From positions 186,001 through 250,000 of the forward strand of contig NZ_JAGJEC010000001.1 of the NCBI RefSeq assembly GCF_018100785.1: a DNA stretch of 64,000 nt, written 5' to 3'. The notes under the pieces are model-generated. The model saw nothing but the letters and a program-made list of their open reading frames with translations, did not search any database and had not been told where the DNA came from. The translations under genes and the position numbers were made by a program. This DNA is from Maribacter sp. MMG018 (GTDB taxonomy: Bacteria; Bacteroidota; Bacteroidia; Flavobacteriales; Flavobacteriaceae). Positions within the stretch are counted from its first letter, which is position 1. Every line of letters starts with the position of its first letter. This document shows, one piece after another, positions 10,065-20,969 of the stretch.

Positions 10065-11408
10065 ATGTCGACAAGACTAACAACGTACTTTAAACTACAT
10101 AAGTTTTCCATACTGTTTGTATTCTTCTCGCTAGTGTTCTATTACACGCTGGCATACCAACTGGAGCGTATAGATTTTATAAAACTACTGACCCTATTTC
10201 TTGCCCTTTTCTTCTTTTACCTAAAATTGATTCAGTTCGAAAAATGGAATTATAGGTTTCTCTTGGCTGCGGGCATTTTAGCCAGAGTGGTTTTCTTGCC
10301 TATGGAACCTCACCTGTCACAAGATTTTTATCGTTTTATTTGGGACGGTGAGCTGGTAAGTAATTTCATGAACCCTTATGTAGAAGTCCCTAATATATTG
10401 ATCAAACAACCTGACCTTATAATAGCCAATGCCCAAGAGCTATATATGGGCATGGGCGATCTAAGTGCCAGACATTATAGCAACTACCCGCCCTTGAATC
10501 AATTACTTTTTGCGCTTGCCGCCCTGTTGGGAGGTAAAACGGTTTTAGGTTCCATTATTGCCATGAGAAGTATTATAATACTCGCAGATATCGGGATTTT
10601 CTATTTTGGAAGAAAGCTCTTAAAAAAACTAAACTGCTCACCCCATCTTATTTTCTGGTACTTTCTTAACCCCTTGGTTATAGTAGAGCTAACAGGCAAC
10701 CTTCATTTTGAAGGGGCCATGTTGTTCTTTTTTGTGTGGTCCATGTATTTATTATCCATAAAAAAATGGCAATGGGCCGCCGTAGTATTTGGCTGCTCCA
10801 TTTCTATCAAGTTGGTGCCTTTGTTGTTTTTACCCCTCTTTCTAAACTACTTGGGAGTTAAAAGAAGTATTCTTTTTTATATAATAGTATTAAGCACCCT
10901 TATATTATCTTTTGCCCCATTTTATACTTTCGAATTTGTTTCAAACTATTCACAGACCCTCAGTTTATGGTTTTCTAATTTTGAATTCAACGCAGGCATC
11001 TACAACCTCATAAAGCAAATAGCGGTTCATTTTGACCAAAAACCTTGGGAATTCATTAAAACCTATGGTAAAATAACACCCCTCATTACCGTTTCTGTGG
11101 TATTATTACTAACCTTTTTTGGCAAAAACAGGAACCTTTTAGGATTAATGACCTCTATGATGTGGGCCCTAACCATCTATTACCTGATTTCCACTACGGT
11201 TCACCCATGGTATATAGTTTTCTTGGTTTTGCTAGCTTCTTTTACCTCGTATAGATACGCACTCATATGGTCGGCGGCCATTATTTTAAGTTACTTTGCT
11301 TATTCTCAAGTAGATTTTAAAGAGAATCTCTTACTACTAGCAATTGAATATATTTCAGTATTAGGTTTTATCTGTTACGAATTTTTTGCACATCCTAACA
11401 AAAAATGA
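10065..11408 (+). CDS. GT-C type membrane mannosyltransferase-like protein
   Basis: A 447-residue polytopic membrane protein with about eleven predicted TM helices. The first extracytoplasmic loop carries QDFYRFIWDGELV followed by NPY, matching the D-x-Y-R-(Y/F)-x-W-D-G motif of MptA/MptB-like and GT87-type transferases that use polyprenyl-phosphate sugars. The Asp of that motif is the expected catalytic base. It likely attaches a sugar on the outer face of the inner membrane, using a donor that the GT2 enzyme at 7686 could make; the link is inference. It sits alone between the terminator at 9883 and the arginine operon leader. A weak TAAATTCG -7-like element lies at 10032-10039. Confidence 0.75.
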   Translation: MSTRLTTYFKLHKFSILFVFFSLVFYYTLAYQLERIDFIKLLTLFLALFFFYLKLIQFEKWNYRFLLAAGILARVVFLPMEPHLSQDFYRFIWDGELVSNFMNPYVEVPNILIKQPDLIIANAQELYMGMGDLSARHYSNYPPLNQLLFALAALLGGKTVLGSIIAMRSIIILADIGIFYFGRKLLKKLNCSPHLIFWYFLNPLVIVELTGNLHFEGAMLFFFVWSMYLLSIKKWQWAAVVFGCSISIKLVPLLFLPLFLNYLGVKRSILFYIIVLSTLILSFAPFYTFEFVSNYSQTLSLWFSNFEFNAGIYNLIKQIAVHFDQKPWEFIKTYGKITPLITVSVVLLLTFFGKNRNLLGLMTSMMWALTIYYLISTTVHPWYIVFLVLLASFTSYRYALIWSAAIILSYFAYSQVDFKENLLLLAIEYISVLGFICYEFFAHPNKK

Positions 11409-11448
11409 AGTTTTTGTAAAAAAAATTCCATCCATTAGGTGGGCTCAA

Positions 11449-11457
11449 TATAATTTG
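11449..11457 (+). promoter_or_regulatory. Weak candidate -7 region for the arginine operon
   Basis: TATAATTTG resembles the Bacteroidota TAnnTTTG -7 element with one extra base. It lies 16 bases upstream of the leader ATG at 11473. No TTG is found at standard spacing, so this is only the best placed candidate between the previous gene and the leader. Start of transcription would fall at about 11463. Confidence 0.3.
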
Positions 11458-11472
11458 TACTTTTACTCCATA

Positions 11473-11559
11473 ATGAACGAACAAAACTACATATCAACTA
11501 CTATGGGCATTTCTGCTCCCGTACGTCGTCCGTTCGCACTTCGCCGCCGTCGCCCGTAA
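11473..11559 (+). CDS. Arginine-rich leader peptide of the arginine operon (candidate)
   Basis: A 28-codon ORF lies in the 240-base gap before the arginine/proline operon. An internal in-frame ATG at 11503 gives the 18-residue form MGISAPVRRPFALRRRRP. Six of the last twelve residues are Arg, and four are consecutive just before the final Pro and stop. All six are CGT/CGC codons, while the neighbouring genes use mostly AGA for Arg, so decoding may be slow. Position and composition are those of an amino-acid-sensing leader peptide (compare the His, Trp and Leu leaders of other bacteria). I see only weak hairpins between it and the first structural gene at 11649 (CCC-GTAA-GGG at 11554-11563 and ATGGA/TCCAT at 11576-11595) and no clear terminator, so the mechanism is open. 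Confidence 0.65.
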   Translation: MNEQNYISTTMGISAPVRRPFALRRRRP

Positions 11560-11648
11560 GGGTAGGGTATATTTTATGGAATTAGGTGAGTCCATTTCCG
11601 CACAAGCAAAATCAATTATTTCTTTATTTTCTTAAAATCTAAATAGCA

Positions 11649-12260
11649 ATGAAGCTAGTTGTTGCTAACGAATCACATTATAAATACGCACAAATTATTT
11701 GTGATACCATTGGGGAGTCTGCAAAAGTTCGTGGAACAGGCATTGCCAAGCGTACCCCTGAATATATTCAGAAAAAACTATCTAACGGTAATGCAATCAT
11801 TGCCTTGGACGGGGACACCTTTGCCGGCTTTTGCTACATAGAAGTTTGGGGACATGAAAAATTCGTAGCCAATTCGGGCTTAATAGTACATCCAAATTAT
11901 AGAGGACAGGGCTTGGCAAAAAAAATCAAAAAAAGAATTTTTGAACTTAGTAAAGAAAAATTTCCAGGCGCCAAAATATTCGGTATTACCACCGGTCTGC
12001 CCGTAATGAAAATTAATTACGAACTAGGTTACCAACCCGTTACTTTTTCTGAACTTACAGATGACCCAGAGTTTTGGAAAGGCTGCCAAACCTGTAAAAA
12101 TTTCGATATCCTAACTAGAACGGAACGTAAAATGTGCCTTTGTACCGGTATGTTACATGACCCCGAGAGAGAGAAAAAGGAAAAAAAGAGTATTGACAAG
12201 AAGTCGTTTAGAAGATTGAAAAGCATTAAAGAATCTTTGTTTTTAAAAAAGAAAAAATAG
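11649..12260 (+). CDS. GNAT acyltransferase, candidate glutamate N-acyltransferase of the operon
   Basis: A 203-residue GNAT enzyme: acyl-CoA pyrophosphate loop VHPNYRGQGLAKKI near residues 80-93 (R-x-x-G-x-A type), preceded by the strand FAGFCYIEVWG. An unusual C-terminal extension has a cysteine cluster (CQTCKNF, then MCLCTGM), possibly a metal site, and ends in a Lys/Arg-rich tail. It is the first structural gene of the arginine operon. The operon has no argA or argJ, so this gene is the natural candidate for acylating glutamate (with acetyl or succinyl groups) in the first step. That function is inferred from position; protein acetylation is an alternative. Confidence 0.7.
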   Translation: MKLVVANESHYKYAQIICDTIGESAKVRGTGIAKRTPEYIQKKLSNGNAIIALDGDTFAGFCYIEVWGHEKFVANSGLIVHPNYRGQGLAKKIKKRIFELSKEKFPGAKIFGITTGLPVMKINYELGYQPVTFSELTDDPEFWKGCQTCKNFDILTRTERKMCLCTGMLHDPEREKKEKKSIDKKSFRRLKSIKESLFLKKKK

Positions 12261-12337: not shown

Positions 12338-13525
12338 ATGAAATTAGTATTAGCATACAGTGGAGGATTGGACACCTCATATTGCGCCAAATATTTATCA
12401 AAAGAAAAAGGATTTGAAGTACATGCGGTAAGTGTAAATACAGGTGGTTTTTCTCCAGAAGAAATTAAGACCATCGAAGAAAAAGCACTAGAATTAGGAG
12501 CTTCCTCATACACGTCTATAGATGCTGTACAGACTTTTTACGACAAGGTGGTAAAATACCTGATTTTTGGAAATGTACTAAAAAACAACACCTACCCCCT
12601 TTCGGTGAGTGCCGAAAGAATCGTACAGGCCATTGAAATCGTAAACTACGCGAAAAAGATTGGCGCTAAATACATTGCTCATGGTAGTACCGGAGCAGGA
12701 AACGACCAAGTGCGGTTCGATATGATCTTTCAAATCATAGCTCCAGAAATAGAAATAATAACTCCCATAAGGGACAACAAACTCGCAAGGGAAACAGAAA
12801 TAGAATACCTAAAACAGAACGGTATAGAATACTCTTGGGAAAAAGCAAAATACTCCATTAACAGGGGACTTTGGGGAACATCCGTTGGTGGTGATGAAAC
12901 ACTGACTTCCGACAAAGCGTTACCGGACAGTGCCTACCCGAGCCAGTTAGAAGAAAAAAATCCAACAGATGTAAAGCTTACTTTTAACAAAGGAGAGTTG
13001 ATTGCCATAGACGGTATAAAAGATACGCCGGTGAACAATATTGAAAAATTGGAAGCCATCGCTTCTAAATATGCCATAGGTAGAGATATTCACGTAGGCG
13101 ACACCATTATCGGAATAAAGGGCCGGGTCGGTTTTGAAGCCTCTGCAGCACTCATCATTATAAAAGCGCACCATTTGTTAGAAAAACACACTTTGACCAA
13201 ATGGCAACAGTTCCAAAAAGAACAACAGGCAAATTTCTATGGTATGCTTTTACACGAAGGCAATTATCTAGATGCCGTGATGAGAAATATAGAAGCATTT
13301 TTGACCGATACCCAAAAAACTGTTTCCGGTGATGTATTCGTTACCCTGTACCCATTCCAGTTTAGGTTGAACGGCATATCGTCTCCACATGATTTAATGA
13401 ACGCAGCCTTCGGAAGTTACGGCGAAATGAACAAAGGCTGGACGGCCGATGAAGCTAAAGGTTTTATAAAAATACAGTCCAATGCGGGTAAAATATATAA
13501 CCACGTAAACAATAGTGATGATTAA
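12338..13525 (+). CDS. argG: Argininosuccinate synthase
   Basis: A 395-residue ATP-dependent ligase joining citrulline and aspartate to form argininosuccinate in the cytoplasm. The PP-loop ATP site LAYSGGLDTSYCAKYL is at residues 4-19. The blocks AHGSTGAGNDQVRFD and KYSINRGLWGTSVGG are diagnostic of ArgG. Length is normal for the family. It is the second gene of the operon, 77 bases after the GNAT gene, and its last bases overlap argC by eight, which implies coupled translation. Confidence 0.95.
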   Translation: MKLVLAYSGGLDTSYCAKYLSKEKGFEVHAVSVNTGGFSPEEIKTIEEKALELGASSYTSIDAVQTFYDKVVKYLIFGNVLKNNTYPLSVSAERIVQAIEIVNYAKKIGAKYIAHGSTGAGNDQVRFDMIFQIIAPEIEIITPIRDNKLARETEIEYLKQNGIEYSWEKAKYSINRGLWGTSVGGDETLTSDKALPDSAYPSQLEEKNPTDVKLTFNKGELIAIDGIKDTPVNNIEKLEAIASKYAIGRDIHVGDTIIGIKGRVGFEASAALIIIKAHHLLEKHTLTKWQQFQKEQQANFYGMLLHEGNYLDAVMRNIEAFLTDTQKTVSGDVFVTLYPFQFRLNGISSPHDLMNAAFGSYGEMNKGWTADEAKGFIKIQSNAGKIYNHVNNSDD

Positions 13526-14492
13526 AGCAGGAATTATCGGAGGTTCTGGATATACCGGGGGAGAACTTATCAGAATTCTTTTGAACCACCCTGGTATGGA
13601 AATCGATTTTGTGTATTCCACCACTAGGGCCGGCAAGCCCTTGTCCTCTGCACACCCTGACCTATTGGGCATTACCGACCTACAGTTTACGGGCGAGGTA
13701 CATTTAAATGTGGACATTGTTTTTTTATGTCTGGGACATGGCAACTCCTCTAAATTCTTAAAAGAACATGATTTTTCATCGAACACTAAAATTATAGACC
13801 TCAGCAATGATTTTAGACTACAGGCCGATGCTAATTTCAACGGTAAAGAATTTGTTTATGGATTGCCCGAACTTAATAGACCACAAATTGAAAATGCCGA
13901 ATTTATAGCTAACCCGGGTTGTTTTGCCACTGCCATACAATTGGCACTGTTACCATTGGCCAAAGCGGGTCAACTTAATTCGGCCGTACATATCAACGCT
14001 GTCACCGGAAGTACCGGGGCCGGTGTCAGTCCGTCCGCTACCTCTCATTTTAGTTGGAGAAACAACAATGTAAGCTGGTATAAACCATTTACCCATCAAC
14101 ATTTATGGGAGATAAACGAGAGCTTACACACATTACAACCAGATACGGGAGAACTCTTTTTTCTTCCTAACAGGGGAAATTTTACTAGAGGTATTTTAGC
14201 CACGGCCTATACCAATTTTGAAGGCAGTTTAGAAAATGCACAAAAATTGTACAACGATTTTTATGCCGACGCCCTTTTTACACATATTACCCAAGACCCT
14301 ATTAATTTAAAACAAGTGGTAAACACCAACCAGTGTCATGTTCATTTACACAAACACGAGGATACTCTTTTAATAACATCCGTGATCGATAATTTATTAA
14401 AGGGTGCGTCTGGACAAGCAGTACAAAACATGAATTTGATTTTTGGTTTCGAAGAAGATCTTGGGTTAAATCTAAAGGCAAGTGTATTTTAA
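13518..14492 (+). CDS. argC: N-acyl-gamma-glutamyl-phosphate reductase
   Basis: A 324-residue NADPH-dependent reductase that converts N-acylglutamyl phosphate to the semialdehyde. The Rossmann motif GIIGGSGYTGGELIR opens the protein and the catalytic cysteine lies in ANPGCFATA near residue 133. I chose the ATG at 13518, which lies within the last codons of argG (8-base overlap). A GTG one codon earlier is possible but unnecessary. In this lineage the acyl group is likely succinyl (see argF'), so the usual name N-acetyl may not reflect the true substrate. Confidence 0.95.
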   Translation: MIKAGIIGGSGYTGGELIRILLNHPGMEIDFVYSTTRAGKPLSSAHPDLLGITDLQFTGEVHLNVDIVFLCLGHGNSSKFLKEHDFSSNTKIIDLSNDFRLQADANFNGKEFVYGLPELNRPQIENAEFIANPGCFATAIQLALLPLAKAGQLNSAVHINAVTGSTGAGVSPSATSHFSWRNNNVSWYKPFTHQHLWEINESLHTLQPDTGELFFLPNRGNFTRGILATAYTNFEGSLENAQKLYNDFYADALFTHITQDPINLKQVVNTNQCHVHLHKHEDTLLITSVIDNLLKGASGQAVQNMNLIFGFEEDLGLNLKASVF

Positions 14493-14524
14493 TAAATGAC
14501 CATTATTAACCAATAATATAAAAA

Positions 14525-15319
14525 ATGAAAATCGCAATAATAGGAGCTGGTAATTTAGGGCTTTCCATTGCCAAAGGTATTTTAAATACCGATGGGGCCA
14601 AAAACATGTACCTTACCAAAAGAAATACAGAAGCTATCTCCGAGTTCGGAAAATATGGCAATGTTACCATTACTTCCGACAATCGTGAAGCAGTCTCCAA
14701 CTCAGACATTCTAATCTTTGCGGTACAACCAGGCCATTTTGCGAAAATTTTAGAGGATGTTAAAGACTTGCTGACTGACAACCATGTGATTATTTCGACC
14801 ATTACAGGATTTGAGATTTATAAAATCGAAGACATCATAGGGGCCAACAACTATATTATTAGAAGTATGCCCAATACCGCTATATCGGTAGAAGCATCTA
14901 TGACCTGTTTATGCAGTAACGAAAAAGGAAAAAAAAGAATCGAATTGGCCAAATCCATTTTTAACAGAATGGGGCATTCCATGGAAATACCCGAAACTCA
15001 AATGCAGGCCGCAACAGTAATCTGCGCAAGTGGTATTGCTTTTTGGATGCGACTTATAAGAGCTACCACACAAGGGGCCATACAGTTAGGTTTTGATGCC
15101 AAAGAAGCCCAAGAATTGGCCATGCACACCTGTAATGGTGCCGCTAAACTATTGATTCAATCCGGCAATCACCCTGAAGAGGAAATTGATAGGGTTACTA
15201 CTCCCATGGGTTGCACTATACAGGGTTTAAATGAAATGGAACACCAAGGACTAAGTTCTTCCCTTATTCAAGGTATAGTGGCTTCGTTCGATAAAATAAC
15301 AGAATTTAAGAAGAAATGA
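14525..15319 (+). CDS. proC: Pyrroline-5-carboxylate reductase
   Basis: A 264-residue enzyme for the last step of proline synthesis: NAD(P)H reduction of pyrroline-5-carboxylate. It has the N-terminal nucleotide-binding motif IIGAGNLGLSIAKGI, the central MPNTAISVEASMT, and the C-terminal signature block RVTTPMGCTIQGLNEME. It lies between argC and argD, and its stop overlaps the argD start as ATGA, so it is firmly part of the operon. Its presence indicates joint expression of proline and arginine synthesis from glutamate. Confidence 0.92.
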   Translation: MKIAIIGAGNLGLSIAKGILNTDGAKNMYLTKRNTEAISEFGKYGNVTITSDNREAVSNSDILIFAVQPGHFAKILEDVKDLLTDNHVIISTITGFEIYKIEDIIGANNYIIRSMPNTAISVEASMTCLCSNEKGKKRIELAKSIFNRMGHSMEIPETQMQAATVICASGIAFWMRLIRATTQGAIQLGFDAKEAQELAMHTCNGAAKLLIQSGNHPEEEIDRVTTPMGCTIQGLNEMEHQGLSSSLIQGIVASFDKITEFKKK

Positions 15320-16443
15320 AATTATTTGACGTATACCCCTTATATAATGTAACACCCGTTTCCGCCAAAGGAATAAAGGTAATCGACGATAAAGGCCAAG
15401 AGTATCTTGATTTTTATGGAGGCCATGCCGTTATATCCATTGGTCACTCCCATCCACATTATATTAAACGGATCTCGGATCAGTTGAACAAAATAGGTTT
15501 TTATAGTAATGCGGTTCAAAACCCCTTACAAAAAGAACTGGCCACAAAATTAGGTACTCTTTCTGGGTGTGACAATTACAATCTTTTTCTGTGTAACTCA
15601 GGTGCCGAGGCCAATGAAAACGCCTTAAAAATGGCTTCATTTGTAACGGGTAAATCTAGGGTGATCGCTTTTAAGAACAGCTTTCACGGGAGAACTTCGG
15701 CCGCTGTGGCCGCAACGGACAATGCCGCCATTGTTGCCCCAATAAACAAACAACAAGCAGTTACTTTCTTAGAGTTCAACGACGCCAAAAGTCTTCAAGA
15801 AGAACTGGAAAAAGGCGATGTTTGCGCAGTAATTTTAGAGGCTATACAAGGTGTAGGAGGCTTGGATGAACCGACGATGGACTTCTTTAAAGAAACAGAA
15901 GCTCTTTGCAAACAAAATAATGCACTTCTTATAGCCGACGAAGTACAATCCGGTTTTGGAAGAAGTGGCAAGTTCTTTGCTTTTCAACACCATAACATTC
16001 AACCAGATATTATAAGTGTCGCTAAAGGAATGGGAAATGGTTTTCCCATTGGTGGCATTTTAATTCATGAAGATATAAAAGCAAGTTACGGTCTCTTAGG
16101 AACTACCTTTGGAGGAAACCACTTAGCTTGCGCAGCCTCATTGGCCGTCTTAGAAGTACTGGAAAAAGAAAATCTTATCGAGAACGCTGCAAAAATAGGA
16201 GCCTATTTTAAAGAAAAAGCCAAAGAAATTCCACAGGTAAAAAAAGTAAAAGGCCAAGGGTTAATGCTTGGTCTAGAATTTGATTTTGAAGTAGGTGAAC
16301 TTAGAAAAAAACTAATATACGACCAGCACTTGTTTACTGGTGGGGCAAAAAACAAACAGTTATTAAGAATACTACCCGCCCTTACTATTACCGAAAAGGA
16401 CATCGATATTTTTTTTAATGCACTAAAAGCACAACTACCTTGA
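15316..16443 (+). CDS. argD: N-acylornithine aminotransferase
   Basis: A 375-residue class III PLP aminotransferase that converts N-acylglutamate semialdehyde to N-acylornithine with glutamate as amino donor. Motifs are SGAEANENALKMA (cofactor phosphate site), LIADEVQSGFGRSGK (the Asp pairing with the pyridine nitrogen) and the PLP lysine in SVAKGMGNGFPIGG. It starts within the proC stop (ATGA) and its own TGA overlaps the TTG start of proA. In Bacteroidota the acyl group is probably succinyl. A role on unmodified ornithine (OAT) is the other possibility, because the gene is flanked by proline genes. Confidence 0.88.
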   Translation: MKLFDVYPLYNVTPVSAKGIKVIDDKGQEYLDFYGGHAVISIGHSHPHYIKRISDQLNKIGFYSNAVQNPLQKELATKLGTLSGCDNYNLFLCNSGAEANENALKMASFVTGKSRVIAFKNSFHGRTSAAVAATDNAAIVAPINKQQAVTFLEFNDAKSLQEELEKGDVCAVILEAIQGVGGLDEPTMDFFKETEALCKQNNALLIADEVQSGFGRSGKFFAFQHHNIQPDIISVAKGMGNGFPIGGILIHEDIKASYGLLGTTFGGNHLACAASLAVLEVLEKENLIENAAKIGAYFKEKAKEIPQVKKVKGQGLMLGLEFDFEVGELRKKLIYDQHLFTGGAKNKQLLRILPALTITEKDIDIFFNALKAQLP

Positions 16444-17639
16444 ACAAACAACTCAACATAAAAGTGCGAAATGCTGTTTTAATGACCATGGCCGAACTGA
16501 TTGCCGATGAAAAACAGGCATTACTAGCGGCAAACAATACAGACCTTGAAAAGTACGACGGGGATGACTTGGCCATGAAAGACCGCTTAAAAATTGACCA
16601 AGCAAAAATAAACGGTATGATCTTGAGCCTACAACAACTTGCGGCACAAGAAGACCCGTTGGGAGTGGAACGTTTTAGCTTTACACACGATAATGGCATA
16701 CAGGTAAGTAATAAGACGGCACCGTTCGGAACCATCCTAATCATATACGAATCTAGACCCGATGTTACCATCGAAGCGGCCGGAATTGCCTTTAAATCCG
16801 GTAACAGAATACTTTTAAAAGGAGGCAAGGAATCATTGAACAGTAACTTATTCTTGGTCAATTTATGGCATAAGGCCCTGGAGGCCAACCAAGCCGATAC
16901 CGATTGGGTCACCTACTTACAATTTAATAGAACAGAAACACAGGCCTTTCTTGAAAAGCCCACCCAGAAAATAGATCTAATCGTACCTAGGGGAGGCGAA
17001 AAACTGATCGCCTTTGTAAAACAACATGCCACCTGCCCTGTAATTGTTAGTGGCCGGGGAAACAATTTTTTATATATAGACGAAGAGGCCGATCTAGAAA
17101 TGGCCACAGATATCATTATTAATGGCAAAACCTCAAAAATATCGGCGTGTAATGCCTTGGACAAAGTACTTGTTTCAAAAAATCTGCCTCGAAAACAAGA
17201 GTTTTTGCAACATCTTGTAAAAGCATTGAAAAAGCATAATGTTGAAATTTTAACAGATGCAAAATTGGAAGGGCTAGAAGGCACCTCACCTATGGACAGC
17301 AATGCTGTTTGGTTCGAAGAATTCTTAGATTATAAAATACTATTAGGACAAGTGTCAGGTTTAAGCGAGGCCATACAACTGATAAACACCTATGGAGGAG
17401 GGCATTCTGCGGCTATCATTACCAACAATAATGAAAAAGCTGACGAATTTATGACCTCTGTAGACGCGGCGGCCGTATATCATAATGCCTCAACACGTTT
17501 TACCGATGGAGGCCAATTTGGTCTAGGCGGAGAATTGGCCATAAGTACCGATAAATTGCACCAACGAGGCCCTATAGGCTTACAACATTTAGTATCCAAT
17601 AAATGGTACGTAAAAGGAAAAGGGCAAGTAAGAAACTAA
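16440..17639 (+). CDS. proA: Gamma-glutamyl phosphate reductase
   Basis: A 399-residue NADPH-dependent reductase of proline synthesis, making glutamate-5-semialdehyde from glutamyl phosphate. It belongs to the aldehyde dehydrogenase superfamily: APFGTILIIYESRPDVT, GGKES, the region PRGGEKLI and a catalytic cysteine in SACNALDKVLV are seen. The start is TTG at 16440, overlapping the argD stop as TTGA. No ATG is available near the N-terminus (the first internal Met removes 15 residues), and the overlap supports re-initiation. It partners with proB downstream. Confidence 0.93.
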   Translation: MNKQLNIKVRNAVLMTMAELIADEKQALLAANNTDLEKYDGDDLAMKDRLKIDQAKINGMILSLQQLAAQEDPLGVERFSFTHDNGIQVSNKTAPFGTILIIYESRPDVTIEAAGIAFKSGNRILLKGGKESLNSNLFLVNLWHKALEANQADTDWVTYLQFNRTETQAFLEKPTQKIDLIVPRGGEKLIAFVKQHATCPVIVSGRGNNFLYIDEEADLEMATDIIINGKTSKISACNALDKVLVSKNLPRKQEFLQHLVKALKKHNVEILTDAKLEGLEGTSPMDSNAVWFEEFLDYKILLGQVSGLSEAIQLINTYGGGHSAAIITNNNEKADEFMTSVDAAAVYHNASTRFTDGGQFGLGGELAISTDKLHQRGPIGLQHLVSNKWYVKGKGQVRN

Positions 17640-17667
17640 ACCCTTCTTTTACCTAGATCAAAATACT

Positions 17668-18459
17668 ATGTCTAAAAAAAGAATATTATTAAAAATTGGC
17701 TCAAATACCCTTACCAAGGAAACCGATCAGATTTCTCGGGGAAAGATAGAGGATATCGGAAGGCAGATTGCCGCCCTTAAGAACGACTATGAGTTTATCA
17801 TTGTAAGCTCTGGTGCCATCGCAGCAGCCAAACAGTTTGTAAAATTAGAACACAACGGAGAAGATATTAATGTAAAACAGGCATTGGCCGCCATTGGGCA
17901 GCCGCATTTGATGCGAATGTTTCAAGAGAGTTTTAGAGAACTTGGCCTTTTTGCCGCCCAATGCCTTTTGTCATACTCCGATTTTGAAAATCAAAAATCA
18001 AAAGCGAACATAAAAAACACGATAGATATTCTGATCAGCAATAACTTTATTCCTGTCATCAACGAAAATGATACCGTTGCAGCCGATGAGATCCAATTTG
18101 GGGACAATGATAAATTGGCTGCATTAACTGCTTCATTGCTCAACGCCGATTTATTAATGATCGCCACCAATACCAATGGTATCTACACGAAGATTTCCAT
18201 TGAAAAGGGTCAACCGGAAACTATTTTTGAAGTACTGGGGGTAAAAGACCTTCAGCACCAGATCAGCACACAAAAATCTTCGCACGGTACCGGGGGCATG
18301 CGATCAAAAGTTGAAGCGGCGACCATTGCCCAGCATGCGGATATCGAAACATGGATCGTAAACGGTCTTAACGATAACTTTATCACCGATGCTTTTAAAG
18401 GATTGGGAGAACACACTAAGATCAAAACAAAAGACGGTCACTTTCTAGAAGACCTATAA
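17668..18459 (+). CDS. proB: Glutamate 5-kinase, short form without PUA domain
   Basis: A 263-residue amino-acid kinase that phosphorylates glutamate as the first step of proline synthesis. Motifs: LLKIGSNTLTKE at the N-terminus, IIVSSGAIAAAKQF, FIPVINENDTVAADEIQFGDND and the glycine block HGTGGMRSKVEAA. Many bacterial ProB proteins carry a C-terminal PUA domain and are about 370 residues; this one ends after the kinase domain, as in other Bacteroidota. It follows proA by 28 bases. Confidence 0.92.
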   Translation: MSKKRILLKIGSNTLTKETDQISRGKIEDIGRQIAALKNDYEFIIVSSGAIAAAKQFVKLEHNGEDINVKQALAAIGQPHLMRMFQESFRELGLFAAQCLLSYSDFENQKSKANIKNTIDILISNNFIPVINENDTVAADEIQFGDNDKLAALTASLLNADLLMIATNTNGIYTKISIEKGQPETIFEVLGVKDLQHQISTQKSSHGTGGMRSKVEAATIAQHADIETWIVNGLNDNFITDAFKGLGEHTKIKTKDGHFLEDL

Positions 18460-18492
18460 AAAAATAAAAACAGCCAGAGAAATAGAACACCA

Positions 18493-19431
18493 ATGAAACA
18501 TTACCTTTCCGTACAAGACATAGATTCGTTACCCGACTGGGTAGACGAAGCCAGAAACCTGAAAAAGGACCCAAAAAAATACAAAACCCTTGGCACCGAC
18601 AAAACCATCGGGCTATTGTTCTTCAACAACAGTCTCCGTACCCGATTAAGTACCCAAAAAGCAGCTATGAACCTTGGCCTGGAAGTTATCGTCATGAATT
18701 TTGGCAGTGAAGGATGGGCCTTGGAGTACGCGGACGGAACCGTTATGGATCAAGGCACCTCGGAACATATTAAAGAGGCAGCACAGGTCATTTCTCAATA
18801 CTGTGATATTATCGCCATTAGGGCTTTCGCCGGATTGAAGGACAAAAAGGAGGACGAGGCGGAAAAAGTACTCAACGGCTTTAAAAAATATGCGTCCGTA
18901 CCTATCGTAAACATGGAGAGTTCTGTAGGCCATCCTTTGCAGGCCCTTGCAGATGCCATTACCTTGGCCGAACAGAACACTAAAAAAAGACCTAAAGTGG
19001 TGCTTTCTTGGGCCCCGCACCCGAAGGCCCTTCCCCACGCAGTAGCAAATTCATTTGTTGAAATGATGCATTTACAAGACGCAGATTTTGTGATCACCCA
19101 TCCCCAAGGCTATGAACTAAATGCCGAGATTACCAAAGGAACAACCATAGAATACGACCAAAAAAAGGCCTGCGAAAATGCAGATTTCATCTATGTAAAA
19201 AACTGGAGCAGTTATAACGATTACGGTAAAGTACTGAATCAAGATAAAAGTTGGACCATGACGCCAGAGAAAGTCGGCAAGGCCAAATTTATGCACTGCC
19301 TTCCCGTACGAAGAAACGTTGTGGTTTCCGATGATGTTTTAGACAGCGACCAATCTCTGGTCATAGAGCAGGCCAACAACCGAACCTATGCGGCCCAGGT
19401 GGTACTGAAGAAAATTTTGGAGAACAATTAA
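18493..19431 (+). CDS. argF': N-succinylornithine carbamoyltransferase (argF')
   Basis: A 312-residue transcarbamylase acting on N-acylated ornithine, producing N-acylcitrulline. The carbamoyl-phosphate motif is SLRTRLST (residues 47-54), with HPLQALAD, WAPHPKALPHAVANSF and FMHCLPVRRN further on. Residue 90, in GTSEHIKEA, is Ser. In the family, Glu at this site (Xanthomonas) gives acetylornithine specificity, Pro (Bacteroides fragilis) gives succinylornithine specificity, and changing the Xanthomonas Glu to Ser confers succinylornithine activity. Ser90 therefore predicts the succinyl substrate, which is inference from published mutants. It is not a standard ornithine transcarbamylase. Confidence 0.88.
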   Translation: MKHYLSVQDIDSLPDWVDEARNLKKDPKKYKTLGTDKTIGLLFFNNSLRTRLSTQKAAMNLGLEVIVMNFGSEGWALEYADGTVMDQGTSEHIKEAAQVISQYCDIIAIRAFAGLKDKKEDEAEKVLNGFKKYASVPIVNMESSVGHPLQALADAITLAEQNTKKRPKVVLSWAPHPKALPHAVANSFVEMMHLQDADFVITHPQGYELNAEITKGTTIEYDQKKACENADFIYVKNWSSYNDYGKVLNQDKSWTMTPEKVGKAKFMHCLPVRRNVVVSDDVLDSDQSLVIEQANNRTYAAQVVLKKILENN

Positions 19432-19435
19432 AATT

Positions 19436-20188
19436 ATTGCCATCAAAAAATTAGAAAACAAAGTATGCATTATCACAGGAGCCACTAGCGGAATGGGCAA
19501 GGCGACAGCCGAACTTTTTTCTGCCGAAGGGGCCAAACTGGTGCTTTCGGGTCGAAATCAAGAACGGGGTACCAAACTGTCCGATCAATTGCCCCACTCC
19601 ATATTCGTGGCCGGCGATGTTAAGGACACAGATTACAACAAAGCCTTGGTGTCGGCCGCAATAGAAAATTTTGGCAAAATCGATGTGATATGCCTTAATG
19701 CAGGCATGCTCGGATTAGGGAATGTAGTTGACCTGTCGGATGTACTTTGGAACGAAACCCTGGCCACCAATTTGACGAGTATTTTTTCGCTCTCAAAGTT
19801 TGCCATTCCCCATTTACAAAAAGAAAAAGGAAATATATTGATCAACGCCTCCATAGCGGCCTTTAAGAGCTTTCCCAACCATCCGGCCTACTGTGCCTCC
19901 AAAGCAGGTGCTGTAGCCTTAATGAAACAAATGGCCGTAGAGTACGCGCCCGACATAAGGGTGAATGCTATATGTCCTGGCCCCGTGGATACCCCTTTGC
20001 TGTATAATTCGGCCCAAGCATTCAAAAATCCCGAAAGTGCGGTTGAAAATGCGGCCAAAGCCACCTTGTTAAATCGGTTGGGCACGCCCGAAGACATTGC
20101 AAAGCTGGCTCTTTTTCTTGTGTCCGATGACTCGTCATGGATTACCGGAACGGCTATGACCATTGACGGGGGAATTATAAATTCGTAA
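19436..20188 (+). CDS. SDR family oxidoreductase with apparent ATT start
   Basis: A short-chain dehydrogenase/reductase of about 250 residues: cofactor motif TGATSGMG, NAG in CLNAGMLG, catalytic Ser in INASIAA, Tyr and Lys in AYCASKAG, and the C-terminal SSWITGTAMTIDGG. The frame upstream of the cofactor motif is open only back to a TGA at 19406 and has no ATG, GTG or TTG. The first ATG (19493) lies inside the cofactor motif and would delete the first beta strand. ATT at 19436, giving MAIKKLENKVCIITG, is the most natural start and lies 4 bases after the argF' stop. Substrate is unknown; its role in an arginine operon is unexplained. Confidence 0.75.
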   Translation: MAIKKLENKVCIITGATSGMGKATAELFSAEGAKLVLSGRNQERGTKLSDQLPHSIFVAGDVKDTDYNKALVSAAIENFGKIDVICLNAGMLGLGNVVDLSDVLWNETLATNLTSIFSLSKFAIPHLQKEKGNILINASIAAFKSFPNHPAYCASKAGAVALMKQMAVEYAPDIRVNAICPGPVDTPLLYNSAQAFKNPESAVENAAKATLLNRLGTPEDIAKLALFLVSDDSSWITGTAMTIDGGIINS

Positions 20189-20189
20189 C

Positions 20190-20969
20190 ATGAAACAAAA
20201 ATTATCCATCATAAAAATCGGTGGTAACGTCATCGAAAATAAGGAGGAACTTTCTAAGTTCTTAAAGGCTTTTTCTGAATTGGATGGCCCAAAAATATTG
20301 GTCCACGGAGGCGGAAAACTGGCCACCCAATTAGGTAAAAAACTTGGAATAGAATCAAAACTTGTCGGGGGACGGAGAATTACCGATGCCCAAAGTCTTG
20401 AACTTATTACCATGGTCTATGGCGGACTCGTAAACAAGAATATCGTGGCCCAGCTACAATCGCAGAACTGTAATGCCCTCGGACTCAGCGGTGCTGACGG
20501 CAATACCATTCAGGCCCATAAGCGGCCGGTAAAAGATATCGATTACGGCTTTGCCGGGGATGTCGACGGTGTTGACGCCACTACCATAACCCGACTTTTA
20601 AAAGCGGGTCTTACTCCCGTTTTCTGTGCCATGACTCATGATGGAAAGGGACAATTATTAAATACAAATGCCGACACCATTGCTTCGGAAATCGCCATTG
20701 GCATGAGCGAAAAGTACGAGACCACCCTATACTATTGCTTTGAAAAAAAAGGAGTCTTGATGGATATAAACGATGATGAATCGGTAGTAAAACATATCGA
20801 CAGCACGTCGTACCAAAAATTATTGCAGCAAAAAATCATCGCCGATGGCATGCTTCCCAAAATGGAAAATTGCTTTCATGCCTTACATAAAAAGGTACAC
20901 CAAGTACGTATTGGAGATATTGGCATGTTAGACCCTAAAACTACTTTATTCACGACTCTTACCCTCTAA
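20190..20969 (+). CDS. argB: N-acylglutamate kinase
   Basis: A 259-residue amino-acid kinase that phosphorylates N-acylglutamate. It shows LSIIKIGGNVIEN at the N-terminus, KILVHGGGKLATQLGKKLG, LGLSGADGN and LLNTNADTIASEIA. It starts one base after the SDR stop, and argE starts two bases after its stop, so all are co-translated. By analogy with argF' the substrate may be N-succinylglutamate. The N-terminal helix of arginine-sensitive kinases is absent, so feedback inhibition by arginine is not predicted from length. Confidence 0.9.
   Translation: MKQKLSIIKIGGNVIENKEELSKFLKAFSELDGPKILVHGGGKLATQLGKKLGIESKLVGGRRITDAQSLELITMVYGGLVNKNIVAQLQSQNCNALGLSGADGNTIQAHKRPVKDIDYGFAGDVDGVDATTITRLLKAGLTPVFCAMTHDGKGQLLNTNADTIASEIAIGMSEKYETTLYYCFEKKGVLMDINDDESVVKHIDSTSYQKLLQQKIIADGMLPKMENCFHALHKKVHQVRIGDIGMLDPKTTLFTTLTL

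Follow-up and report, generated by a model that had tools for sequence, protein, structure and literature searches.

In the his, trp and leu attenuators, a leader peptide rich in codons for the end product lies directly before the biosynthetic operon, and in TnaC (tryptophan) and SpeFL (ornithine) peptide release is blocked in a metabolite-dependent manner. Arginine synthesis in other bacteria is usually under the repressor ArgR, a form of protein/DNA control. For Salmonella orf34/speF, a published study describes two consecutive Arg codons that sense arginine through ribosome pausing, with translation interfering with Rho-dependent termination (PMC6386406), and passages on the S. aureus leader peptide rbfL describe sensing of arginine limitation via tRNA-specific Arg codons (PMC13009471). 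A study of Flavobacterium psychrophilum, which concerns the same family as our locus, the Flavobacteriaceae, reports clues to leader-peptide attenuation upstream of amino-acid biosynthesis operons and structured elements before pheA, hisG and others; its main text, supplements lying outside our scope, has no argG and brings in arginine only with cyanophycin (PMC9723704). Leader-like sORFs are described in Bacteroides, with arginine absent from the passages covered (PMC7366714), and the covered part of PMC4833913 likewise has no occurrence of arginine. According to passages on Actinobacteria, arginine operons there have no conserved RNA structure, and arginine T-boxes occur in other species (PMC1262725). 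Searching titles and the starts of abstracts, with most subscription journals outside the search, we found no paper on an arginine leader element in Flavobacteriaceae.

Here we describe such a candidate in Maribacter sp. MMG018, within a window of 64,000 nucleotides (contig NZ_JAGJEC010000001.1, positions 186,001 to 250,000; all coordinates below are those of the window). Comparison among relatives establishes, at the level of sequence conservation, a leader ORF, its Arg codons, two RNA hairpins and their tie to the argG operon. We consider it probable that the conserved ORF and hairpins act together as an arginine-responsive attenuator: when charged tRNA-Arg is scarce, the ribosome would halt at the CGT/CGC codons and keep hairpin 1 from closing, and operon expression would rise.

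The features of the locus are collected in Table 1. The leader is housed in a 240-nt gap (11409–11648) between an upstream neighbour and the first operon gene, which we take to be a GNAT-family acetyltransferase, a name that comes from an earlier note on this DNA. The short Arg-rich ORF described in that note is confirmed: its six Arg codons read CGT CGT ... CGC CGC CGT CGC, and a CCG (Pro) codon stands between the run and the stop. Argininosuccinate synthase and the other arginine and proline genes follow, and argE- and argH-like ORFs, named by eye, come after argB. We also observed an SDR oxidoreductase gene (19493–20188) inside the operon, flanked by the carbamoyltransferase gene and argB. 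Among named relatives, Maribacter thermophilus is closest (GNAT identity 97%).

Table 1 Features of the arginine leader locus, in window coordinates
Feature	Position	Strand	Remarks
Unnamed membrane-protein-like ORF	10065–11408		Upstream flank of the leader gap; judged by eye
Predicted Bacteroidota promoter, −7 region TTTG-TACTTTTA	11454–11465	+	From an alignment of 88 rows on the leader ATG
Arginine leader peptide ORF, MNEQNYISTTMGISAPVRRPFALRRRRP and stop	11473–11559	+	28 codons; ATG 11473–11475, TAA 11557–11559
Hairpin 1	~11546–11568	+	Core GCCC-GUAA-GGGU, 11552–11563; UAA in the 4-nt loop
Hairpin 2	~11578–11599	+	GGAAUU, bulged A, GG-UGAGU-CC, AUUUCC; stem covaries, tip nearly invariant
Unstructured G-poor tail, candidate Rho-loading stretch	11600–11648	+	Before GNAT; Rho role putative
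GNAT-family acetyltransferase (presumed)	11649–12260	+	First operon gene; no NCBIfam match at 1e-10
argG, argininosuccinate synthase	12338–13525	+	
argC, proC, argD-type transaminase, proA, proB, N-acetylornithine carbamoyltransferase type (argF'), SDR, argB	13515–20969	+	

For the comparison we used GNAT as an anchor, which is present in 39 of 60 Flavobacteriaceae genomes, the window's own included. The 110 upstream regions taken (the best 30 of these 39 genomes and, among 505 named loci, the 80 that scored best; 107 distinct, one of them the window's own) are biased to close relatives because the best-scoring loci were chosen. The upstream alignment across Flavobacteriaceae that the earlier note had called for, run on this set, shows the end of the small ORF and its Arg codons to be conserved. 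A CGCCC anchor fixed the reading frame in 109 of the 110 loci (L010 was dropped); the leader ended in R-P-stop in 107/109, the two others being L020 and L027, and the stop was TAA in 99, TAG in 9 and TGA in one. An ATG lay 15–45 codons ahead of the stop in 89 of 104 unique leaders; the 15 without one in this range were chiefly loci with a second upstream ORF. In 77 of 81 unique loci, the first ATG after a promoter-like block opened an uninterrupted frame that runs into the conserved end, where chance would give about one third (24 loci had no block and one had no ATG, and these were left out of the count). As measured across these loci, such conservation of frame makes the leader ORF more than a chance ORF, and by its frame, stop and codon conservation it looks translated. 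The N-terminal part drifts among loci; nearer the end, Phe at −8 (61/104 unique leaders) and Pro at −6 (50/104) recur via different synonymous codons. Read-through from the leader into GNAT was ruled out by the differing frames and an in-frame TAA at 11640–11642 ahead of GNAT.

Bacteroidota promoters have the consensus TAnnTTTG at a characteristic distance from the transcription start. The predicted block at our locus reads mostly TTTG-TACATTTG in relatives; an exact TAnnTTTG 6–9 nt before the leader ATG occurs in 48/109 loci and is not exact in the window itself. Block and leader ATG are separated by 7 or 8 nt in 72 of the 81 unique loci. Of the two starts the earlier note had left in play, 11473 and 11503, we therefore keep the first and drop the second, since it is at 11473 that the 7–8 nt gap is conserved. 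Transcription is predicted to start near 11469, giving a 5' UTR of ~4 nt, and the predicted block ends at 11465, well placed against the objection, raised beforehand, of a transcription start downstream of 11505. A sigma-70 scan, which does not cover TAnnTTTG-type promoters, gave no plus-strand site at the leader promoter.

Two conserved RNA hairpins, both omitted from the earlier account, accompany the ORF. The 5' arm of hairpin 1 (consensus CGCCC-NNNN-GGGUG) holds the leader's last Arg and Pro codons, and the stop codon usually sits in its loop. Calling loops from sampled structures at a probability above 0.5, we found the stop within the loop of a hairpin of at least four pairs in 92/109 leaders vs 17/197 GNAT stop codons; it lies outside the loop in L010, L020, L027, L122 and L125. 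Hairpin 2 (consensus GGAANU-A-GG-UGNGU-CC-ANUUCC) combines a covarying stem of six pairs with a bulged A and the tip AGG-UGNGU-CC; L145, with GA/UC, is the sole row without GG/CC at the tip. In an alignment of 86 sequences, all from loci matching model R1 and fitted to that model, which favours the structure, 8 of the 13 pairs of the two hairpins change on both sides, a number reached by 0/500 shuffles, with slid controls lower. The starting alignment of 25 sequences (alignment A1, 37 rows, minus 12, of which several had hairpin 2 misaligned and all were restored in the later alignment) had 5 such pairs, reached by 1/500 shuffles; its further pair types were matched by 73/500. RNAalifold on 88 leaders returned hairpins 1 and 2 only. 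The fold energy of the window's own leader was no better than that of shuffled sequences (z 0.21 and 1.63).

We examined further roles for the tip of hairpin 2. Pairing with the Arg-codon strand was not favoured, the variable loop base seeming, by eye, independent of the codon third base. Positions 11584–11593, AGGUGAGUCC, are a near-complement of the 3' end of 16S rRNA as commonly known, with one extra base; no start codon follows AGGUGAGUCC, and pairing with 16S rRNA was set aside. As a genome-wide signal, GGTGNGTCC was likewise put aside, with 43 matches vs 33 for a control pattern.

The Arg codons of the leader are of one kind. CGY accounts for 418 of 439 (95%) in the 104 unique leaders, counting the last 25 codons where there is no ATG, vs 18/92 (20%) in ten genes of the window, and 81 of the 94 leaders with an ATG use CGY only. 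Arg stands at −2 in 103 of the 104, at −3 in 99, at −4 in 85 and at −5 in 48. The CGY bias may be due in part to pairing within hairpin 1; among the leaders listed, the Arg codons at −3, −4, −5 and −10, which take no part in its core pairs, are CGY as well. The loss of the Arg run in relatives with the same operon, which the earlier note had named as telling against its proposal, was not seen: relatives keep their Arg codons. Its emphasis on the four-Arg run holds in that respect and gives way in another, as the deeply conserved part is the R-P-stop end within its hairpin together with the second hairpin.

These same residues bear on the strongest competing explanation, in which the leader would be an arrest peptide whose nascent chain, together with free arginine or a metabolite related to it, would prevent release at the stop, and the stalled ribosome would alter RNA folding or Rho access. 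The near-invariance of the last two residues, R-P, would suit this, as would the Pro before the stop, a context known for slow release, the recurrence of Phe −8 and Pro −6 through varied synonymous codons, and the many candidate leaders outside the family that end in RR, RV, RI or RA before the stop. R-P is, however, also demanded by the pairing of hairpin 1, L020 and L027 have other ends, and a peptide sensor has no need of CGY. The CGY preference speaks for a leader that senses a single tRNA-Arg and argues against a peptide-only sensor, and we regard the arrest peptide as unlikely.

A stand-alone RNA sensor, either a riboswitch or a protein-binding RNA, would consist of the two hairpins and make the ORF incidental. 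The strong conservation of hairpin 2 with its near-invariant tip, the drift of the ORF's N-terminal part and the loci without an ATG in the usual range would all be expected of it. It would leave unexplained why the frame is kept from promoter block to stop in those 77 of 81 loci, why the stop persists as TAA, TAG or TGA, and why CGY prevails outside the hairpin core too. Nor did any Rfam family match at the gathering score in the whole window and eight relatives; a looser search (E up to 5) yielded one sub-threshold chance match, on the opposite strand. We think this explanation very improbable.

How hairpin 1 would be coupled to output may be hinted at by what follows hairpin 2. As the earlier note had remarked, no standard terminator is present: we found 0 terminator-like sites in 11400–11700, and RNAalifold on the 88 leaders gave no conserved alternative helix with hairpin 1 blocked. 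With no conserved pair of terminator and antiterminator to be seen, the locus does not establish a mechanism of the classical his/trp kind, and the output step, most likely through Rho, is a proposal. The tail after hairpin 2 is unstructured, with a mean MFE of −0.9 kcal/mol and C/G of 2.4 over 101 unique sequences; within L031–L110 only, C/G is 3.0 (75 unique tails) vs 1.19 in 77 unique stretches upstream of argG. Rho is encoded in the genome, and together with this C-over-G, unstructured tail it is suggestive of Rho loading. Translational control, in which the position of the ribosome on the leader would alter how readily ribosomes reach the GNAT start or re-initiate there, has a precedent in passages on S. 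aureus rbfL (PMC13009471) and is the least credible explanation of all, as the GNAT start lies ~49 nt (42–98) past hairpin 2, across that unstructured stretch, and no conserved pairing reaches it.

The tie of the leader to the arginine operon, asserted in the earlier note for this one locus, is borne out by the placement of the element upstream of GNAT and argG. The tip of hairpin 2, GGTGNGTCC, is found near GNAT in 110/110 loci, 57–113 nt upstream where a distance was given. Model R1 matched in 177 of 299 Flavobacteriaceae genomes, 197 of which carry GNAT, and all 120 matches that could be placed, among at least 133 listed, lay 39–95 nt upstream of GNAT on the same strand. Among the listed matches, R1 occurs without GNAT only in G591 and G655 (L224, L225), with argG ~730–860 nt downstream. 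Conversely, 22 of the 197 GNAT genomes are without an R1 match among those listed under strict filters. Inspection of eight R1-negative GNAT loci showed that L145 matches R1 in a smaller search and that others keep diverged forms; in L226–L228 the hairpins are degenerate and an Arg-rich ORF stands upstream, and L148, from genus g61, is without both hairpins. This many-species genus of Flavobacteriaceae gave strong R1 matches in 0/17. By eye, L146–L148 of the genus carry another short ORF in the leader's place, MNKxSLHITSLSRT..P.TSPEVR.., with CGG codons.

The window's genome holds one strong R1 copy. The next match (E 0.003) overlaps a 267-codon SDR-like frame and was rejected as a second element; two further matches are weaker still, and G582 also has a second match. 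Across 296 genomes of the phylum, R1 matched at E 0.1 or better in 30, and the 12 with E below 1e-5 are all Flavobacteriaceae; the weak matches outside the family (17 genomes, E 0.007–0.1) were taken, as a group, as chance.

Some loci carry tandem leaders, with a second Arg-rich ORF of the type MKNLKNKIRCSxPGLPVRNRRRF-stop ~290–360 nt before GNAT (L012–L019, L022, L023, L026, L027, L029, L119, L121–L123, L125 and L145). In many of them an A/U inverted repeat, AAAAUAAAAUACGU ... ACGUAAUUUUAAUUUUU, surrounds this upstream ORF by eye. A loose filter passes such an ORF in 28/116 loci, at least 6 of which have the look of frames open by chance within the gene upstream, and 16 sequences of the region, two of them misaligned chance ORFs, gave no RNAalifold consensus fold.

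We also asked where ArgR occurs. Its C-terminal domain, PF02863, was found in 0/63 Flavobacteriaceae genomes, the window's own included, in which the N-terminal domain gave sub-threshold matches only. In a wider set, PF02863 was found in 7/77 genomes, six of them clear and one (G092) marginal with an internal stop. The six clear genes, all from families f11 and f98, sit just upstream of GNAT, and five of these six loci are without any leader candidate, the sixth (L201) passing a loose leader filter. This pattern suggests that the leader may replace ArgR in the control of arginine synthesis, a reading confounded by descent because clear ArgR is confined to f11 and f98.

Beyond the family, GNAT was present in 76 genomes; we took 74 loci (G363 and G374 were left out), 68 of them without clear ArgR. 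An Arg-ended short ORF occurs in 34 of these 68, against 7 on the reverse strand and a mean of 5.5 (maximum 10) in 100 shuffles, so that some of the 34 are probably chance; by the same filter the other 34 have no Arg-ended leader. The candidates use mixed kinds of Arg codon. A stop within the loop fails as a rule here, with only 10/34 leaders, and we therefore claim it for Flavobacteriaceae only. Within 200 nt of GNAT, 12/68 loci have a hairpin with the tip CC-UNYGY-GG in place of GG-UGNGU-CC (L155, L157, L159, L164, L167, L176, L177, L179, L181, L186, L200 and L206), vs a mean of 0.08 and maximum of 1 in 200 shuffles; the pattern was picked after some loci had been viewed, and the twelve include several close relatives.

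The attenuator we favour would work as follows. Transcription would begin ~4 nt ahead of the leader ATG, and a ribosome would therefore load at once. With ample arginine it would run on to the stop codon, within the hairpin 1 loop, and leave; hairpin 1 would then fold beside hairpin 2, and with hairpin 1 closed RNA polymerase would stop early or the RNA would be destroyed, most likely via Rho on the tail. When arginine is scarce, the stalled ribosome would sit over the 5' arm of hairpin 1, letting the operon be read, so that the leader would do the job of ArgR in other bacteria. The earlier note had already proposed attenuation by stalling; the apparently translated leader, its CGY codons, the tie to the operon and the failure to find ArgR speak for that proposal, whereas stalling itself and the direction of the response we still infer.

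More tentatively, and with doubt prevailing, Flavobacteriaceae, lacking ArgR, could control arginine synthesis by a new class of leader-peptide switch that dispenses with terminator and antiterminator. As the stop lies in the loop of hairpin 1, ribosome arrival, stalling at Arg and release would amount to the hairpin being open or closed, and the hairpin 2 tip AGG-UGNGU-CC would dock a partner (RNA polymerase, Rho, a part of the ribosome or a protein), leading to termination; other orders of Bacteroidia would have rebuilt the layout with other Arg codons and the tip CC-UNYGY-GG.

The leader would probably explain the control of arginine synthesis in a large family with ArgR found in none of 63 genomes, and the covariation-supported element present in 177 of 299 of its genomes is without an Rfam match in the sequences tried. 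If the attenuator reading is true, arginine biosynthesis joins the operons controlled by leader peptides. The leader would also be a compact case of translation controlling expression in a class, the Bacteroidia, whose ribosomes ignore Shine-Dalgarno sequences (PMC9976891).

Among the systems with which we began, the resemblance to the his, trp and leu attenuators lies in an ORF rich in end-product codons, whose translation is suggested by its conservation, with the arginine operon directly downstream. Unlike them, the Maribacter leader has no intrinsic terminator or conserved competing antiterminator that we could find, its stop lies in a hairpin loop, and a second hairpin carries a fixed tip. 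Salmonella orf34/speF shares the short upstream ORF with Arg codons; that system differs in its peptide, in controlling ornithine decarboxylase rather than arginine synthesis, and in involving RNase G and sequestration of a ribosome site, and it has been studied at the bench whereas the Maribacter leader is known from sequence (PMC6386406). The rbfL leader peptide of S. aureus also has Arg codons, but these are AGA/AGG, limitation lowers output, and its target is a biofilm regulator, whose ribosome-binding site it blocks, going by passages of the study (PMC13009471). ArgR differs in kind, being protein/DNA control that was not found here and whose gene takes the place just upstream of GNAT in the six f11 and f98 genomes; the task the two would share is to keep arginine synthesis under control.
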